From contig JAFWHR010000021.1 in assembly GCA_017511945.1 (NCBI GenBank), positions 1-36,164 on the forward strand: a stretch of DNA of 36,164 nucleotides, given 5' to 3'. Source of the DNA: Bacilli bacterium (GTDB lineage Bacteria > Bacillota_I > Bacilli_A > RF39 > UBA660). Shown one piece after another: positions 7,227 to 18,122 of the stretch. The translations under genes were made by a program, and so were the position numbers. The first letter of the stretch is position 1. Each line of letters opens with the position of its first letter. The notes below the pieces were generated by a model that was not told the origin of the DNA, ran no database searches, and was given only the letters and a program-made list of their open reading frames with translations.

Positions 7227-8004
7227 ACCTAAGTTTTTTTTCAATAAATACAATTATATAATAGATAAAACTAGCCATTACAGAGATTAAAAATACACCA
7301 CACATTACCAAATCTAAATTAAAAACCTGTGATCCATACATTATTAAATAACCGACGCCAGCTTTAGATACTAAAAATTCACCAGTTATAACCCCTACAA
7401 AAACTAAAGAAAAACTGACCTTACTAATATTTACTAAATTGCTAAAATTGTAAGGTAAAATTAGTTTAAAAAATATTTGTTTTTTAGATGCATTTAAACT
7501 TTTTAAAAATCTAATTTTATTTATATCAGTTTGCCTAAAAGCATGATGAACATCAATTACTGTTATAATTAAAGAAATAAATAGAGCCATTAAAATGATA
7601 GATTTAGTAGAAGCTCCCGCTATTATAATTATAATAGGTCCTAAAGATACCTTAGGCATGCAGTTTAAAATCGTAAGATAAGGATTTAAAATTTCAAATA
7701 AAAATTCATGTTTCCAAAGTATAGTAGCTATTATCAAACCTAAAATAGTTCCAATTAAAAAGCTTAATAAAACCTCATATAAACTTACCCATATGTGATA
7801 AAAGATAGACCCATCATTATAAAGTTTTATAATAGTTTCCAAAACTTTTTTAGGACTAGATGAGACAAAAGAATTAATCCATTTCATATCAGCAGCCAAT
7901 TGCCAAAATATTATAAGCGCTAAAAAGATAAAGACTTGAAAAAATATTTTAATTAATTTTTTCTTTTTTATATTTTTTAAATAAACTAAATGCTCACTAG
8001 ACAT
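7225..8004 (-). CDS. ABC importer permease, NitT/TauT/ThiX type
   Basis: The 259-residue inner-membrane permease has about six helices. The EAA-like loop LNASKKQIFFKLILPYNF (about residues 184-201) contacts the ATPase. The region between helices 2 and 4 (ILNPYLTILNCMPKVSLGPI) is typical of BPD_transp_1 permeases of the nitrate/sulfonate/taurine/thiamine-precursor group. Its start overlaps the ATPase C-terminal fragment by 8 bases, so translation was coupled to the ATPase. The gene is intact, but its two upstream partners are both interrupted by mobile elements, so expression from the original promoter is doubtful. The substrate cannot be told from sequence. Confidence 0.88.
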   Translation of the reverse strand: MSSEHLVYLKNIKKKKLIKIFFQVFIFLALIIFWQLAADMKWINSFVSSSPKKVLETIIKLYNDGSIFYHIWVSLYEVLLSFLIGTILGLIIATILWKHEFLFEILNPYLTILNCMPKVSLGPIIIIIAGASTKSIILMALFISLIITVIDVHHAFRQTDINKIRFLKSLNASKKQIFFKLILPYNFSNLVNISKVSFSLVFVGVITGEFLVSKAGVGYLIMYGSQVFNLDLVMCGVFLISVMASFIYYIIVFIEKKLR

Positions 8005-8332
8005 TATGATCTATATCCTTCCATATCTTTTCATAATAGTAAGCAAACATTTTATCCTTTCTATTTTCAGTTGGACACCCTTCTTTTTCAAATTTAATTT
8101 CATAAATACTTTTAATCCTTCCAGGTCTATTAGTTAAAACTATAACTCTATCAGCCATACTAATAGCCGTTCCTATATCATGAGTTACCATTATAGCACT
8201 TTTATTTTCATTTTTAATAATCTTGTATAAATCGTCAGACACCAAAAGTCCTGTTTGATAATCCAAAGCAGATGTAGGCTCATCTAATAGTAGAATATCT
8301 GGTTTAATTGCAAGTGTCCTGATTAAAGATAC
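7997..8332 (-). pseudogene. ABC importer ATPase, C-terminal part (split by element 1)
   Basis: From SLIRTLAIKPDILLLDEPTSALD onward this is the Walker B, D-loop and H-loop (VTHDIGTA) half of an ABC ATPase of the NitT/TauT class, ending in the usual C-terminal tail. It lacks Walker A and the signature motif. These lie at 12519-12922, on the far side of a 4.2 kb insertion. Joining the halves at the shared GT gives QRV-SLIR and a 245-residue ATPase of normal length with no other lesion. In the present arrangement the frame runs upstream into element sequence (an in-frame ATG at 8371), giving a hybrid 124-residue ORF that is unlikely to work. Confidence 0.92.
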
Positions 8333-8336
8333 TGCT

Positions 8337-8354
8337 TGAATGTAGTATAGACAC
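8337..8354. repeat. element 1 left inverted-repeat arm
   Basis: TGAATGTAGTATAGACAC matches the reverse complement of the right arm (12497-12514) at 16 of 18 positions. It sits four bases from the shared AC dinucleotide, the same distance as the right arm. It is probably half of the attP site bound by the recombinase. Confidence 0.8.
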
Positions 8355-8898: not shown

Positions 8899-9861
8899 TT
8901 ATTCATTAGTTAAGAAATTCATAACTAAATCAATTAGTATATCTTTTTCTCTTGGATTAGACTGGGCTATAAGTAGAGTAATTGCAACTAATGTATTGTT
9001 GTCAATAACCTGTCCATTTTCATTATATAAAATATTATAAAATTCTAGAAAGTATATGAATAGTGTTGCTGCTATCCTTTTGTTTCCATCAATAAAGGTG
9101 TGGTTTTTTGTGATTAAATATAGGAAATTAGCCGCTTTTTCTTCTATAGTGGGATATAAATCATTGCCATCAAAAGATTGGTATATAGCACCTATAATAG
9201 CTTTTAATCCTCCATTTCTCTCAAGAGCAAACAAATTACTATCACTATTAAATCTAAGTTTGTTAATAATATCTATGCAATTTTCATAAGTTATTATTTT
9301 ATCGTCTTTTGTCCCTCTTGGCTTAGTTAATGTTTTATGATCATAATCATCAAGTAAATTTAAAGCATTTGAATAATTATTTATTACTTTAATTATTTCT
9401 TTTGCTTCATCACCTTTTATTTCTTTGTCTATTCTTCCTGCAATATCAATTAATTTTACAGTCTTTTCTAAGTATTCTAATCTCCTTTGGTTTATAGCAT
9501 AACCTCTTAACAAATAATCTTTTAATATTTTATTTGCCCATTTTCTAAATATGACACCATTTTTACTTTTAACTCTATAACCTACGCTGATTATCATATC
9601 TAGGTTATAGTAATCTAATTCTCTAGTTTGAGTTTTATCTGATAAAGCCCCATGTTTAGTGGTATGTGCAAATTTTGCACATACCTCGTTTCTATCTAAT
9701 TCCTGCTCTTTGAAAACATTATTTATGTGTCTAGTAATAACAGTTCTATCTCTATCAAATAGTTTAGCCATTTGATCTAGTGATAGCCAAACGGTTTCAT
9801 CTTTCATATTAACTTCAAGTTTTACATCCTGATTTTCAAACAATATAATCTCATTTTTCAT
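8899..9861 (-). CDS. RhuM-family / Fic-DOC fusion protein
   Basis: The 320-residue protein has two parts. Residues ~8-130 are RhuM-like, with an HTH-like stretch LDQMAKLFDRDRTVITRHI and the YRVKSKNGVIFRKWANKILKD segment shared with phage antirepressor/KilA-type proteins. Residues ~185-320 are a Fic/Doc domain with motif HTFIDGNKR at 254-262: catalytic His254, then the phosphate-binding loop. Fic enzymes usually AMPylate or, like Doc, phosphorylate targets, and many act as toxins. No separate antitoxin is next to it. A consensus promoter with a palindrome in its spacer lies upstream. The domain order is seen; toxin or defence activity is inference. Confidence 0.88.
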   Translation of the reverse strand: MKNEIILFENQDVKLEVNMKDETVWLSLDQMAKLFDRDRTVITRHINNVFKEQELDRNEVCAKFAHTTKHGALSDKTQTRELDYYNLDMIISVGYRVKSKNGVIFRKWANKILKDYLLRGYAINQRRLEYLEKTVKLIDIAGRIDKEIKGDEAKEIIKVINNYSNALNLLDDYDHKTLTKPRGTKDDKIITYENCIDIINKLRFNSDSNLFALERNGGLKAIIGAIYQSFDGNDLYPTIEEKAANFLYLITKNHTFIDGNKRIAATLFIYFLEFYNILYNENGQVIDNNTLVAITLLIAQSNPREKDILIDLVMNFLTNE

Positions 9862-11704: not shown

Positions 11705-11853
11705 TTTATATACCTCTAATTAAATATATTAAAACATTTATTATTTTAATCTCTATTTGCAAAATCTTTATAATATATTGAACTTTTTTATTATCTATAT
11801 ATTTATTATTTTTATCTAATACTATAGATGTTATTTAAATATTGGAGGTGTTT

Positions 11854-12486
11854 GTGAATCAAGATATTTTTTCAACAATAAATAATCATAATGAAATATG
11901 TGACAAAATGAGTAATAGAAATAATAAAAGTAAATGTCATGATAAGAAATGTAACCCCTGTAATAATGGATGCTACGTTATAGGTTCGCCGGGTCCAATC
12001 GGTCCAACTGGTCCAACCGGACCTCAAGGATTACCAGGTGGCCCAACCGGTCCAGATGGAGGAATATTTAATTATGCAGATTTTTATGCTCTAATGCCAC
12101 CTGATAATGCTGCTACAGTAGCACCTGGAACTGATGTTAGTTTTCCTCAAGACGGACCAAATAGTGGTGCTTCCATAACAAGAATAGGAGCAAGTTCATT
12201 TAATCTAGCAGAAATTGGTACTTATCAAATATATTTTAATGTTCCAATCTCAGAAGCAGGACAATTACAATTGACATTAAATGGCACACCTTTAGCCTAT
12301 ACAGTTGTAGGAAGAGCAACCGGAACTAGCGATATTTCAGGAATGTTTCTTGTTAATACAACTGCAATTAACTCAATATTAACAGTAAGAAATACTGCAG
12401 GAAATCCTGCGGCTTTAACAATAACTCCTTTAGCTGGTGGTACAAACCCCGTTTCAGCTCATCTTGTTAAAATTCAAATTGCTTAA
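11854..12486 (+). CDS. BclA-like collagen-repeat protein
   Basis: The product is 210 residues from GTG 11854, which follows GGAGGTG. The N-terminal ~45 residues are hydrophilic and Cys-rich (CHDKKCNPCNNGC). A short collagen-like stretch follows: six Gly-X-Y triplets from GSPGPIGPTGPT, one extra glycine, then GPTGPD. The C-terminal ~135 residues (from FNYADFYALMPPDNA) resemble the trimeric TNF/C1q-like BclA C-terminal domain. BclA proteins form hair-like exosporium or surface fibres in spore formers. There is no signal peptide, normal for spore-coat delivery. It is cargo at the right end of element 1, opposite in strand to the recombinase, and noticeably richer in G+C than its surroundings. 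Confidence 0.87.
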   Translation: MNQDIFSTINNHNEICDKMSNRNNKSKCHDKKCNPCNNGCYVIGSPGPIGPTGPTGPQGLPGGPTGPDGGIFNYADFYALMPPDNAATVAPGTDVSFPQDGPNSGASITRIGASSFNLAEIGTYQIYFNVPISEAGQLQLTLNGTPLAYTVVGRATGTSDISGMFLVNTTAINSILTVRNTAGNPAALTITPLAGGTNPVSAHLVKIQIA

Positions 12487-12514: not shown

Positions 12515-12518
12515 TCCA

Positions 12519-12922
12519 ACTCTCTGTTTCATACCACCAGATAAACTGGAAGGATATGCATCTTTAAATTCATATAGACCATATGTTTTAAGAAGTTTAT
12601 TGACATAATCTACATTTTGAAGTTTATCTTGAATCTCTAAACCGATAATACAATTTTTATATATACTTCTCCAGTCAAATAAACTATCACCCTGAAGCAT
12701 ATACCCAAACTTCAAATTAGAATCACACATAACCTTTCCATCACTTGGTTTATCCAGTCCACATAAAATAGATAAAATAGTACTTTTGCCACATCCACTT
12801 GGACCTACTATAGCGACAAATTCACCTTTTTTAAGATTAAAAGAAAAATTATCAACAGCTAATAATTCTTTTTTTTCTGTGTGATAAATTTTCTTAAGAT
12901 TACTTACTTTTAATATTTCCAT
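12519..12922 (-). pseudogene. ABC importer ATPase, N-terminal part (split by element 1)
   Basis: This is the first 135 residues of a NitT/TauT-class ATPase: Walker A GPSGCGKST, Q-loop GYMLQGDSLFDW and signature LSGGMKQRV, after which the frame enters the element and stops within three codons (TGA at 12512-12514). Walker B and the rest are at 7997-8332. ATG 12922 is one base from the stop of the binding-protein gene (TAATATG), so the two genes were coupled. As it stands, the fragment can bind no complete ATP site and cannot power transport. Confidence 0.93.
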
Positions 12923-12923
12923 A

Positions 12924-13466
12924 TTATTTTATAACAAGTTTTGAATAAGGTGCTTTTCTGTCTAACTTTCCAGCATTAGAAACTATTTCTTGAATGTGAT
13001 TAAACTCATCCTTATCAATATTAGTGTTAACTTTCCATGCCTCAATATCTCTATACTTTTGAACTATTCTTTCTATAGTACTAACTTTAGTATCAGGGAA
13101 ATAATCTTTTATAATATCAGCAACTTCCTTAGAAGAGTGATTTTTAACATAATCCAAACCTCTTTGAATAGCCTTTTTAAACCCTTTAATAACCTTATCA
13201 TTTTTATCAATATAACTTTTTTTAGTAATATATGATGTGTATGGTACATTTCCACCAAGTTCTCCAATAGAAGCAACTATAGATCCATAACCCTTATCAA
13301 CTAAATCAGAAGCAGTCGGTTCAAAAACAGATACAAAATCACCAGTTCCCCCAATAAAAGCCCCAGTAGTAGAAGCAAAATCAATACTAGTATCAAAATT
13401 TACTTCATTAGTTTTAATTCCATTTTTATTAAGTGCGTATTCTAAAGTCATGGCTGGCATGCCACC
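12924..13466 (-). pseudogene. ABC substrate-binding protein, C-terminal part (split by element 2)
   Basis: From GGMPAMTLEYALNKNGI onward this is the C-terminal lobe of an NMT1/SsuA-type binding protein, with FIGGTGDFVSVFEPTA, SYIDKNDKVIKGFKKAIQRGLDYV and the final helix region. Upstream, the frame continues into element 2 to an ATG at 13499, but those residues (MTKRTHICVRT) are element-derived. The matching N-terminal part is at 17695-18122. Joined at the shared GG, the two halves give a 322-residue protein reading AGREG-GMPAMT, a normal family length. A secretion signal is missing from this half. Confidence 0.92.
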
Positions 13467-13477
13467 TGTGCGTACAC

Positions 13478-13489
13478 AAATGTGAGTAC
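13478..13489. repeat. element 2 left inverted-repeat arm
   Basis: AAATGTGAGTAC is the exact reverse complement of the right arm at 17672-17683. It lies 11 bases inside the proposed CC core. The bases next to the core (TGT) are also symmetric. Confidence 0.82.
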
Positions 13490-13509
13490 GTTTTGTCAAT
13501 CATTATTTA

Positions 13510-13975
13510 TTAATAGTAATTATAGTTTGTAATAATTGTTCCAAAGTCAAATAGAGCAGATGTATATGATAATATATAAGTATCATATATTAAATGGCAA
13601 AATAAAACAAATATATTTAGGTAGTTAAAGTTTTTTACATCATTTATATCAATAAATCAAGTATATATAATTGAACAATGCAGTAGTAGACAACCTATAA
13701 TATTTTAAGTGTTAAATAGTATACATAATATTGTCAAAATAATAATTATTTTAATTAAAATAGTTAATTTTTTTATGGTAAATAATGTTTCTAATTAGGT
13801 TTAGAATGTTAACTATTGCGCCATAAATTCCTCCTAGCACTATATTACTCAAAGTTTATAGTCTACTTTGTATGCTTTGAATATAAATAATATATTTTGT
13901 TTTTTTCAAAGTTACTGAGTAAACCATTAATATGCAGGCAATTAGTGCGATTGCATTTCCAATTATTATCGTCAT
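13510..13975 (-). pseudogene. decayed YgjV-like membrane protein gene
   Basis: From ATG 13975 the minus strand reads MTIIIGNAIALIACILMVYS, then KKTKYIIYIQSIQ, an in-frame TAA (13856-13858), and in the same frame TLSNIVLGGIYGAIVNILNLIRNIIYHKK, stopping at 13751. This is the pattern of YgjV-family inner-membrane proteins. A further stretch in another frame (HLIYDTYILSYTSALFDFGTI, ending at 13510) looks like the family's last part, so the gene has at least one nonsense mutation and one frameshift. Between the decayed segments nothing else is seen except an AT-rich hairpin near 13564-13588. Its role in the element is unknown; the family is loosely linked to membrane transport or toxin import. Confidence 0.7.
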
Positions 13976-14094
13976 TTTTAATCACTATTATGATGGTATC
14001 AAATAGCCAGGGATAAGTCCATAAAATTATGAGTTTATAATTTTTGCTTTTTATTGTTTATTTTGATAAAATTATTAAAGAATGGAGGTTATTT

Positions 14095-15771
14095 ATGTTA
14101 AATGAATTTGACATAACTAAAAAAAATGATTCTGATATAACAAGTATTGGAGAATTAATAAGAAATGATTATTCATATTTTTCAACCTTATCTTCTGAAC
14201 TTAGAAATAATCCTTATTTGTTAAATATTGCTCTTACAAGTTTTAATGGTGGAAAAAATTCGATTAATCCAATAAGTTATGCTTTAGAAAAGGCCCTAAC
14301 TAAAGAAAATATAGATTTAGCACTAGAAAAAGGAGGAAATATCAATATTTACGGATTACTTAGAGAAAATGAGTTATTCCATAAGATTAATATTGAAAAA
14401 GGTGTAATTCCAGTAGCTTATTCTTTACTCCCTAACTTTATAAAAGAAGATGATTATTTAATGAGCTTATATATGAGAATATGTCCTGATGAATATAAGA
14501 ATTTAGATGTAAGGCAGCGTAATAATCCTGAAATATTAAAACAAGCACTTGATAATGAATTAGGTAAAAATCCAATAAGTTATGCTTTGGAAGGAGCACT
14601 TACTGATGAAAATGTAGATTTAGCACTAGAAAAAGGCAATATTATAATTGTTAAAGATAGTCCACTTTCAAATTGTAAACATTTAGTTTTAAAATTATTT
14701 CAAGATAGTCATAATGTTTTCCAGTATGTGTTTTTATCTGATAAATTAAAATCAGATCCTGAAATATTAAAACAAGCACTTTTAAATTATGATAGTAAAA
14801 TAGTTAAAGTAAATCCAATAAGTTATGCTTTGGAAGGAGCACTTACTGATGAAAATATGGATTTAGCATTAAAACTCGGTAATGTAAAAATTATTAAAGG
14901 TGCATCTATTTCAGACAGTAAATATTTTATTATTGAAGTTTTTAAAAGAGGATTATATATTTCTCATTATAAGGATATATCTGATAAATTAAAATCAGAT
15001 CCTGAAATATTAAAACAAGCACTTTTAAATTATGATAGTAAAATAGTTAAAGTAAATCCAATAAGTTATGCTTTAGAAGGAGCACTTACTAAAGAAAATG
15101 TAGATTTGGCATTAAAAAAAGGTAATATAGAATTTATGTTAAATAATTCTCTTTTAAGTAATAGATATTTTGTTATAAAATCTTTTAAAAATGGTTTGTT
15201 TTTTTCTCAGTATAATAATATATCTGATACATTAAAAAATGATCCAGAAGTAAGAGCACTTATACCATCTGAATTAGAGAAGATGTATAAGTATGACTGC
15301 GCAGTAATTGGCATTTTACCAGATGGAAAAGCTTTAGAGAGGGAAGTAAGAGGTAAAAGTGATAAAGGTGATCATCACAAGGGTACTATTATTAAAATGA
15401 TAGATGAATTTTGTGAAAAATATGAAAATGATAGTTATTTATGTGCTTTACGTAATGATTTATCAGGTGTTTCTAATTCATTTAAAGCAGCTCAGTTGTG
15501 TGCAAATTATGATGTTTTGGCTGTTTTAATTGTAGAACATATTTGTATGCTTTTTTGTCCTGATGTTCTTTCTATAGAGCAACTTCAAACCCTTCAAAAT
15601 TTTTTAAATAAATATTCTGATTATTTTGAGTGTGAATTATATCATGGAGGGGAGATATTTAGAAAAAACGTTAGTCAAGAAAATGGAGAAAGTGATCGTT
15701 TTAGTGTTGATGAAACGATAGATTTAATAGATACAAATGATTGGGTTAATAGAGTACGTAGTTATAGATAA
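14095..15771 (+). CDS. hypothetical protein with 81-residue tandem repeats
   Basis: The 558-residue protein (ATG 14095 after GGAGG) is not a family I can name with confidence. Residues ~33-85 and repeats starting near 137, 214, 295 and 376 share the pattern LKSDPEILKQAL...NPISYALEGALTDENVDLAL.KGN, with period 77, 81 and 81 residues. The short 'DPEI..AL' units recall DUF4116-like helical repeats. Residues ~400-558 form a separate C-terminal region with the HHKGTIIKMIDEFCEKYEND and LIVEHICMLFCPDV segments and no recognised catalytic motif. No signal peptide or TM helix is seen, so it is probably cytosolic. It is the main cargo of element 2. Element genes of this kind often serve defence or host fitness, but that is speculation. 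Confidence 0.85.
   Translation: MLNEFDITKKNDSDITSIGELIRNDYSYFSTLSSELRNNPYLLNIALTSFNGGKNSINPISYALEKALTKENIDLALEKGGNINIYGLLRENELFHKINIEKGVIPVAYSLLPNFIKEDDYLMSLYMRICPDEYKNLDVRQRNNPEILKQALDNELGKNPISYALEGALTDENVDLALEKGNIIIVKDSPLSNCKHLVLKLFQDSHNVFQYVFLSDKLKSDPEILKQALLNYDSKIVKVNPISYALEGALTDENMDLALKLGNVKIIKGASISDSKYFIIEVFKRGLYISHYKDISDKLKSDPEILKQALLNYDSKIVKVNPISYALEGALTKENVDLALKKGNIEFMLNNSLLSNRYFVIKSFKNGLFFSQYNNISDTLKNDPEVRALIPSELEKMYKYDCAVIGILPDGKALEREVRGKSDKGDHHKGTIIKMIDEFCEKYENDSYLCALRNDLSGVSNSFKAAQLCANYDVLAVLIVEHICMLFCPDVLSIEQLQTLQNFLNKYSDYFECELYHGGEIFRKNVSQENGESDRFSVDETIDLIDTNDWVNRVRSYR
14735..15074 (+). repeat. 97-bp exact direct repeat within the 558-residue protein gene
   Basis: The 97 bases at 14735-14831 recur without change at 14978-15074, an offset of 243 bases or exactly 81 codons. 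Similarity continues beyond with scattered differences. The perfect stretch points to a recent duplication or gene-conversion event between repeat units. Confidence 0.88.
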
Positions 15772-15788
15772 TTATTAATTATATAAAG

Positions 15789-15813
15789 AGTAATCTTTTT
15801 GGTTACTTTTTTA
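15789..15813 (+). terminator. intrinsic terminator after the repeat-protein gene
   Basis: AGTAATC (15789-15795) pairs with GGTTACT (15801-15807), with one G-T pair, around a T-rich loop, and is followed by TTTTTATTT. It separates the cargo gene from the recombinase unit. Confidence 0.75.
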
Positions 15814-15921
15814 TTTATGCATATTTTGATAAATAGAAATATGTTTTAATGTATGATAAATTATTATTTTGTCATGTTTTAATTAAATACTAAATATAGT
15901 ATAAAGTGAGGAGGTTTAATT

Positions 15922-16017
15922 ATGAATGTTGAAATTCATTATAATGAGGATGGCAAGACATTTCAAAAGTTATTAGAAGAGTACATTGTTACTGTTTATA
16001 GTAATGAACAAGGATAA
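15922..16017 (+). CDS. 31-residue hypothetical protein before recombinase 2
   Basis: ATG 15922 follows a strong GAGGAGG (15909-15915). The product MNVEIHYNEDGKTFQKLLEE... ends in NEQG and is acidic. It sits 17 bases before the recombinase GTG. Short acidic proteins of this size often precede serine recombinase genes in Bacillota elements. A role in translational coupling is plausible because the recombinase has no strong ribosome-binding site of its own. No family assigned. Confidence 0.65.
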   Translation: MNVEIHYNEDGKTFQKLLEEYIVTVYSNEQG

Positions 16018-16034
16018 TAAAATGAAAACAGAAG

Positions 16035-17612
16035 GTGATTTATATAACATGCAATAATACTAAATATAAAGTTGCCATTTATATGAGATTATCAAGAGAA
16101 GATGATAAAACTGATGATAAAGGTAAGTATCATAAAAGAGATAGCGAAAGTATTAATAATCAGCGCAATATATTAAAAAAATATATTAGTCAAAATAATT
16201 TAAATCTTTTAGGTGAGTATGTGGATGACGGTTATAGTGGTTCTAATTTTGATAGGCCAAATTTTAAGAGGATGATTAGTGATATAGAAAAAGGATTAAT
16301 CAACATGGTTATAGTAAAAGATTTATCAAGACTTGGTAGAAATAATATTGAAACTAGTAAGTATGTTGATAGATACTTTCCAATACATAAAGTAAGATTT
16401 ATTGCACTTTTGGATGATGTTGATACTGAGATGGACACTATGGGAAATGAAATGGCTCCTTTTAAAATTGTCGTAAATGATTATTACAATAGAATAACTT
16501 CTAAAAATATTAGAACAACATTTAAAAATAAAAAAAGTGAAGGGTTATTTTTAGGCTGGAAAGCACCTTATGGTTATAGGAAATCAAGTGTAAATAAATA
16601 TAAGCTTGAGATAGACGAAGAAGCAGCAAAGGTTGTTAGAAGAATATTTTATCTTGCTAAAGAGGGAAATAGTCCTGGGCAAATAGCAAATATACTTTCT
16701 GAGGATAATATACCTACACCTAGTATGTATGCTAATATAAATAGAAAAGTAAAGTCATATAATCTTTGGTGTTCTAGGACTATTGATGAGATGTTAAGTA
16801 ATGAAACTTATATTGGTAATTTAACGCAGGGGAGAAGAAAAAAGATATATGGTGTAAAAATGGAAATTAGAACCCCTAAAGAAGATTGGATAATCGTAGA
16901 AAATACACATGAACCAATAGTTGATAGAGAAACATTTAAAATAGTTCAAAAGATAAGAAGAAAAAAATTAAAAGGTGGTTTTGAAATTCATAATTATTTA
17001 TTTAGACATTTTTTAAGGTGTAAAGAGTGCAGTCACGCAATAGGTGTTACTGTAAGAAATACTAGAAGACAATCATATACTTCTTGTACCTATTATCAAA
17101 AGTATAGTAAATATAAGTTATGTACGCCTCACACTATGAATTATGGAAAGTTAGAGACTGAAATACTTAGTAAAATAAGAGAACTTTGTGAAAAAAATAT
17201 AGATAAAAATACTCTTAAGACAATTATAAAAAATGAAGAAAAAAATAATAATAGATATGAAAAACTAAAAATTCAGTTTAATGAATTTCAAGATAAATTA
17301 GATAATTATGATAATTACTTTGATGATATTTATCTTGACTTAAAAAAGAATATAATTAATGAAGAACAATATAATAGAGCTAAAGTTAGATTAGAAAAAG
17401 AAAAGGAAGATATTATAGAAAGACTGAAGAAAACAAAACAAAAACTTTCAAATACCTCTAATGAGAGTGCTAAAGAAAAGGATATAGTTAAATTTATTAA
17501 TAAGTATTTATCTTTTGAAAAACCTCCTAAACAGTTAATTGCTTTGCTTATTGATAGAGTAGAGATAGATGAGAATAAAAAGATAGACATATACTTTAAT
17601 TTTAAGATTTAA
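16035..17612 (+). CDS. large serine recombinase of element 2
   Basis: This 525-residue recombinase should move element 2. The resolvase domain has VAIYMRLSREDDK with catalytic Ser20, SINNQR, YVDDGYSGSNFDRPNFKRM and DLSRLGRNNIET. A recombinase domain follows (APYGYRKSS to NETYIGNLTQGRRK), then a zinc ribbon (CKECSHAIG, later two Cys) and a coiled coil (~380-480). The start is unusual. The frame opens with GTG 16035, with only AGAAG upstream. The nearest ATG codons (16022, 16049) are in another frame and meet a stop at 16055. No later start keeps Ser20. It ends 60 bases before the right arm, the usual integrase-beside-att layout. Confidence 0.93.
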   Translation: MIYITCNNTKYKVAIYMRLSREDDKTDDKGKYHKRDSESINNQRNILKKYISQNNLNLLGEYVDDGYSGSNFDRPNFKRMISDIEKGLINMVIVKDLSRLGRNNIETSKYVDRYFPIHKVRFIALLDDVDTEMDTMGNEMAPFKIVVNDYYNRITSKNIRTTFKNKKSEGLFLGWKAPYGYRKSSVNKYKLEIDEEAAKVVRRIFYLAKEGNSPGQIANILSEDNIPTPSMYANINRKVKSYNLWCSRTIDEMLSNETYIGNLTQGRRKKIYGVKMEIRTPKEDWIIVENTHEPIVDRETFKIVQKIRRKKLKGGFEIHNYLFRHFLRCKECSHAIGVTVRNTRRQSYTSCTYYQKYSKYKLCTPHTMNYGKLETEILSKIRELCEKNIDKNTLKTIIKNEEKNNNRYEKLKIQFNEFQDKLDNYDNYFDDIYLDLKKNIINEEQYNRAKVRLEKEKEDIIERLKKTKQKLSNTSNESAKEKDIVKFINKYLSFEKPPKQLIALLIDRVEIDENKKIDIYFNFKI

Positions 17613-17671
17613 GTATATGTTTTTTTTAAAGAGAAACTGTACTTTTTAATAGTGAGAATATATAAAGGTGT

Positions 17672-17683
17672 GTACTCACATTT
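17672..17683. repeat. element 2 right inverted-repeat arm
   Basis: GTACTCACATTT is the exact inverse of 13478-13489 and lies 11 bases from the CC pair at 17695-17696. It probably forms half of the recombinase-binding attP. Confidence 0.82.
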
Positions 17684-17694
17684 TGAGGAGAACA

Positions 17695-18122
17695 CCCTCT
17701 CTCCCAGCTATGATATGTTTTCCTTTTAAATCAGATACCTTAAAATTCTTAATTTTCTTTCTAGAAACTAGAAAACTTCCATCTTTTTGAGTTAGCCCTG
17801 CAAAATTAACTAAATAATCTTTTTCTCCTCCGTTATATACATAAATGGTAGATTCACTTCCGCAAAAACCAATTTGTACATCTCCTGATAAAACAGCAGA
17901 AGTAACCTTATCAGCTCCAGATGTTAATATAATCTCAACATCAAGTCCCTCATCTGAAAAATATCCAAGTGAGTGAGCAACATACTGCGGTGCATAAAAC
18001 AAACTGTGAGTAACCTCTCCAACTTTAATTTTAGTAAGTTCTTTTTTATCTTCTTTTTTAAAGACAAAAAATCCCATTATTATCAAACCTAATAATATAA
18101 GACTGATAACTATTTTTTTCAT
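17695..18122 (-). pseudogene. ABC substrate-binding protein, N-terminal part (split by element 2)
   Basis: This is the first ~143 residues of an NMT1/SsuA/TauA-type binding protein. Residues 1-21 form a hydrophobic segment without a lipobox cysteine, so it is either anchored or cleaved by signal peptidase I. LFYAPQYVAHSLGYFSDEGLDVEI and SGDVQIGFCGSESTIY are the family's lobe-1 motifs. The frame enters element 2 after AGREG and stops five codons later (TGA at 17676-17678). It is the first gene of the importer operon; a TATAAT-like -10 and AGAAGGG lie upstream. No riboswitch fold is apparent in the ~100 bases before the start. The substrate is unknown. Confidence 0.92.

Follow-up and report, generated by a model that had tools for sequence, protein, structure and literature searches.

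A DUF4116-type repeat protein with an orphan C-terminal region is the large cargo of a small element, with a large serine recombinase, that splits an ABC transporter gene

The skin element in sigK, SPbeta in spsM and the fdxN element each carry an internal recombinase gene, split a host gene, and restore that gene in frame upon excision. Element 2, described here, likewise has its recombinase gene inside it, splits a host gene and would restore that gene in frame upon excision; it lies in a window comprising the whole stretch of DNA analysed, i.e., positions 1 to 36,164 of contig JAFWHR010000021.1 (assembly GCA_017511945.1) from a member of the Bacilli (RF39; UBA660) that probably has an AT-rich genome of 0.9 Mb, judging by class-mates with genomes of about 0.8 Mb that apparently read TGA as sense. 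The nearest NCBIfam recombinases to that of element 2 are CcrB and XisF. Unlike skin, SPbeta and the fdxN element, element 2 is 4.2 kb long, carries one large cargo gene, targets the substrate-binding-protein (SBP) gene of a transporter, and shows no evidence of developmental excision.

Element 2 is flanked by two open reading frames (12924-13499 and 17676-18122) that together make up a single ABC SBP gene of SsuA/NMT1 type, which is intact in locus L102 and in most congeners. The bounds of the element follow from the position of the two GGTG cores (Table 1), and the joined flanks read AGAGAGGGTGGCATGCCAGCC in the frame that relatives with an uninterrupted gene use, with the insertion point at a conserved SBP codon between GGREG and GMPAMT. 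At the inferred attP, or circle junction, the core lies between the inverted arms GTACTCACATTTG...CAAAATGTGAGTAC. Identical short cores at both ends, an empty site in relatives and a target gene restored when the flanks are joined characterise element 2, a small non-conjugative integrating element made up of a large serine recombinase, in which we read the catalytic-serine motif YMRLSRE, and one cargo gene. The first-pass annotation had placed a single large cargo gene next to a recombinase, and this is borne out, the recombinase being a site-specific serine recombinase within a gene-splitting element. Its description of that gene as the sole intact cargo stands for large genes only, as a 31-aa ORF is also present; this ORF has no PHROG match and is possibly an accessory factor. 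A search of element 2 against Rfam returned nothing, TRF gave no sign of an RNA-antitoxin repeat upstream of the cargo gene, and the hairpin behind that gene fell below the threshold of our terminator scan.

Table 1. Features of element 2, its cargo gene and the split SBP gene (positions in the window)
Feature	Position	Strand	Basis or remark
Element 2, 4,230 bp	13467..17696		joined flanks give an intact in-frame gene
Core GGTG (CACC on +), junction with C-half of SBP gene	13463..13466	-	
Core GGTG (CACC on +), junction with N-half of SBP gene	17693..17696	-	
C-half of split SBP gene	12924..13466	-	tblastn to intact L102 gene, 68%
N-half of split SBP gene	17697..18122	-	tblastn to intact L102 gene, 83%
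DUF4116-type repeat protein, cargo of element 2	14095..15771	+	558 aa
Degenerate first copy, NPISYALE...LALEKG block, residues 58-80	14266..14333	+	partial, 79-87% to other copies
Three 243-nt (81-aa) repeat units in register, last incomplete	14568..15252	+	
Exact 97-bp repeat, copy 1	14735..14831	+	
Exact 97-bp repeat, copy 2	14978..15074	+	
Orphan C-terminal region, about residues 395-558 (~165 residues)	15277..15771	+	no homologue
Probable terminator hairpin AGTAATC-TTTTT-GGTTACTTTTTT	15786..15813	+	behind cargo gene, read by eye
31-aa ORF with RBS, upstream of recombinase	15922..16017	+	sequence
Large serine recombinase of element 2, 525 aa	16035..17612	+	Resolvase + Recombinase + Zn ribbon

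The same ABC operon is interrupted a second time in the window, i.e., two of its genes each hold a separate recombinase element. Element 1 splits the ATPase gene at the signature, between LSGGMKQRV and S, and the two halves (8000-8338 and 12515-12922) match an intact 245-aa ATPase at 74-76%. Element 1 encodes a RhuM-Fic fusion (8899-9861; PADLOC candidate PDC-S23, E 5e-125) and a collagen-like protein (11842-12486) with a BclA_C domain (E 5e-10). At three other loci with a split SBP gene (L113, L114 and L115), the neighbouring ATPase gene is likewise short, stopping after 141-145 aa at this signature, which points to a recurrence of the double interruption in further genera.

The cargo gene begins with ATG behind a good ribosome-binding site (GGAGG), and the repeat protein first proposed for it is real, with a degenerate N-terminal copy preceding the three in-register units. 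TRF reports a period of 243, 2.8 copies and a score of 782, and the in-register copies (199-243 nt, starting at 14568, 14811 and 15054) share 74-81% DNA identity. The exact 97-bp repeat is likewise confirmed: in 200 versions of the gene with shuffled synonymous codons, the longest exact repeat averaged 20 nt and never exceeded 41 nt. By eye, the protein has no evident signal peptide, and its single hydrophobic stretch (residues 474-492) contains Glu and His.

In each repeat unit, a constant half (DPEILKQAL...NPISYALEGALTDENVDLALEKG) is paired with a variable half, and the 97-bp identity covers the constant half only. Between units, the ratio of nonsynonymous to synonymous codons is 26:0, 25:1 and 21:3 in the variable half (35 codons), compared with 3:2, 2:4 and 3:2 in the constant half (23 codons), giving NG86 dN/dS values of 1.3-1.8 and 0.2-0.5, respectively. 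As the sample is small and the DNA AT-rich, these values do no more than suggest selection on the variable half, where the dN/dS could also reflect relaxed constraint. The exact repeat had earlier been taken as a sign of recent repeat duplication and of variable repeat number, and neither proposal is supported by this comparison. Recent duplication of a whole repeat is rejected on the divergence of the units, whose variable halves are only 61-70% identical in DNA (30-39% differing), with nearly all codon changes altering the amino acid. As for repeat number, units differ by 19-26% overall, and no copy from a second strain was found for comparison. Because the constant half carries zero synonymous changes across the 97 bp while neighbouring synonymous distances are 0.2-0.5, we infer that local homogenisation, i.e., gene conversion, fits the identity better than a fresh duplication of the unit.

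The repeats, initially considered unrecognised, belong to a known family, since they match Pfam DUF4116 (PF13475) above the cut-off (39.7 bits against a gathering cut-off of 24.9; E 3.7e-10), although the best match spans only 38 residues of one unit. DUF4116 has been modelled as an alpha-solenoid (PMC8078820). Single-sequence AlphaFold prediction of the full protein without homologues was unusable (pLDDT 36), so a solenoid reading of the cargo protein depends on the family model. Like other DUF4116 proteins, the cargo protein has several helical repeats, and it shares with the DUF4116 proteins resident in the source genome a ...YAS..L.NDPEIV..A-like core. It differs from plain DUF4116 proteins in having an 81-aa composite unit rather than plain tandem units, a strong alternation of constant and variable halves, and an orphan C-terminal domain.

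The source genome encodes two more DUF4116 proteins. The gene for one of them (L023) lies immediately downstream of rpoC, the other (L022) is found in an unremarkable part of the chromosome, and both are more ordinary members of the family. A DUF4116 relative is present in 24 of 44 genomes of the genus. In pairwise BLAST, the repeats matched a 1294-aa repeat protein in genome G538 (E 3e-24) and a 218-aa protein in G706 (E 9e-13). The G538 protein (L035:2561-6442) shares the NPE...YALE.GLTEENI.LA.EKG motif and 28-30% identity across the repeats; unlike the cargo protein, it has a 49-aa unit and is chromosomal, downstream of rpoC, with no recombinase element seen around it. Read by eye, its DUF4116-type repeats are fused to a segment bearing a nucleotidyltransferase-like GS...D.D motif (GSTGRGTNKPGDGDFDF), followed by a C-terminal hydrophobic helix. 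The two resident proteins, the frequency of relatives in the genus and the matching rpoC location in G538 all fit an alternative in which the element captured a chromosomal DUF4116 protein with an ordinary host scaffold role and no element-specific benefit. We regard this as a serious but unlikely alternative, as neither resident protein has the repeat subtype of the element (NPISYALEGALTDEN) at E 0.001, and it was found in only 2 other genomes of 288 in the order. A profile of the repeats (A1) had no match outside the window among viral contigs or, at E 1e-5, among 291 genomes of the family.

The C-terminal region could not be assigned by the first reading, and it stays so after a wider search: it matches nothing in Pfam, NCBIfam, PHROGs or PADLOC, yields only noise from Pfam and PDB even when E values as high as 10 are admitted, and has nothing above noise in genome contigs, viral contigs, phages, plasmids and 395 same-class genomes. 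Weak same-class matches (E 0.001-0.1) fell on differing stretches of the region, and we attribute them to chance. Single-sequence AlphaFold prediction of this region without relatives was again unusable (pLDDT 42).

The SBP gene is a recurrent integration site. It is present in 35 of 36 sampled genomes of the genus and is cut at the codon used by element 2 in five of these (G000, G005, G006, G010 and G021). Among recombinases of the family, each of the 13 most similar ones adjoins one half of the SBP gene, so the site preference is a property of the recombinase clade. Both element 2 and the insertion hot spot are well supported. In L101 (from G021) and L107 (from G859), the SBP gene is interrupted not only at codon 144 but also near codon 72, there by an insertion whose recombinase is more distant (35-37%).

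The cargo at this site is varied. Two-gene elements of about 3 kb carry a HipA-like protein alone with the recombinase (L114 and L115), and others carry an Mrr-type nuclease (L112), a methylase-like gene read by eye (L110) or a large surface-type repeat protein (L116). Two elements taken from the genus search, outside the top 13 recombinases, carry an acyltransferase and a CoA-transferase (L098), in one case with a HipA-like gene nearby (L099). Arginine-deiminase genes adjoin a further element (L105) and may be host genes, since its far end was not found. The HipA-like proteins and the Mrr-type nuclease match PADLOC candidates PDC-M03A (E 6.8e-19) and PDC-M36A (E 1.5e-13), respectively.

The first-pass annotation had viewed a recombinase with a single large gene as a typical layout of defence or host-modifying genes. 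Some elements whose cargo is a candidate defence or toxin gene do share this layout, and it is chiefly on this that one can read the cargo protein as a single-gene anti-phage defence whose variable solenoid would recognise a phage component and whose C-terminal domain would trigger an abortive response. The HipA-like and Mrr-type genes of the sister elements lend this reading weak, indirect support, and the methylase-like gene and the RhuM-Fic protein of the neighbouring element 1 point the same way. However, cargo at the site is only sometimes defence-like, and location does not predict the trait because some of these cargos are metabolic or surface proteins. The cargo protein itself has no PADLOC family at E 0.1, and Pfam and PDB searches gave its C-terminus no known effector fold. 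Homologue contexts do not favour it either: the chromosomal neighbours of repeat relatives are rpoC or pheS/frr, and DUF4116 proteins on plasmids and one phage showed neither a constant partner nor a defence island around them. A defence role is possible but rather improbable, and the function first proposed is not supported.

The comparison of sister elements also bears on whether the protein serves the element itself, in recombination directionality, mobilisation or superinfection immunity. It is the only other large gene in element 2, but sister elements at the same site, with recombinases 44-55% identical, lack it and so do not need it for integration or excision; in addition, recombination directionality factors are usually far smaller. 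We consider such a role very improbable.

The explanation we prefer, which as a whole we hold to be evenly balanced between right and wrong, is a cargo protein that is soluble and cytosolic, an alpha-solenoid of DUF4116-type repeats ending in the orphan C-terminal domain. Within its helical repeats, conserved structural halves would take turns with variable ones, the variable surface would most likely bind a protein or nucleic-acid partner, and the C-terminal domain would carry or cap an activity. The anatomy of the element, the gene structure, the repeat family and the orphan C-terminus are shown by our data, and the solenoid comes from the published family model. We infer the cytosolic location and the binding role, and with them an accessory benefit that binding would give to the host or the element, with phage defence as one rather improbable option within this preferred explanation. 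A bolder version is distinctly unlikely, i.e., a new family of single-gene recognition proteins in which the variable halves of a DUF4116 solenoid evolve under diversifying selection, the constant half is gene-converted, the effector fold is new, and site-specific elements shuttle the whole.

With this locus, DUF4116, a family without known function, gains a member that resides in a small mobile element and bears an orphan C-terminal domain. The work also shows that, in a small-genome lineage, an ABC transporter gene is a repeated target of integration, often by cargo-bearing elements of just 3-6 kb. The points of note are the orphan domain, the alternation of constant and variable half-repeats, and the hot spot; should the cargo protein turn out to be a recognition factor, the remaining cargos of the site would offer a limited set of accessory-gene candidates.
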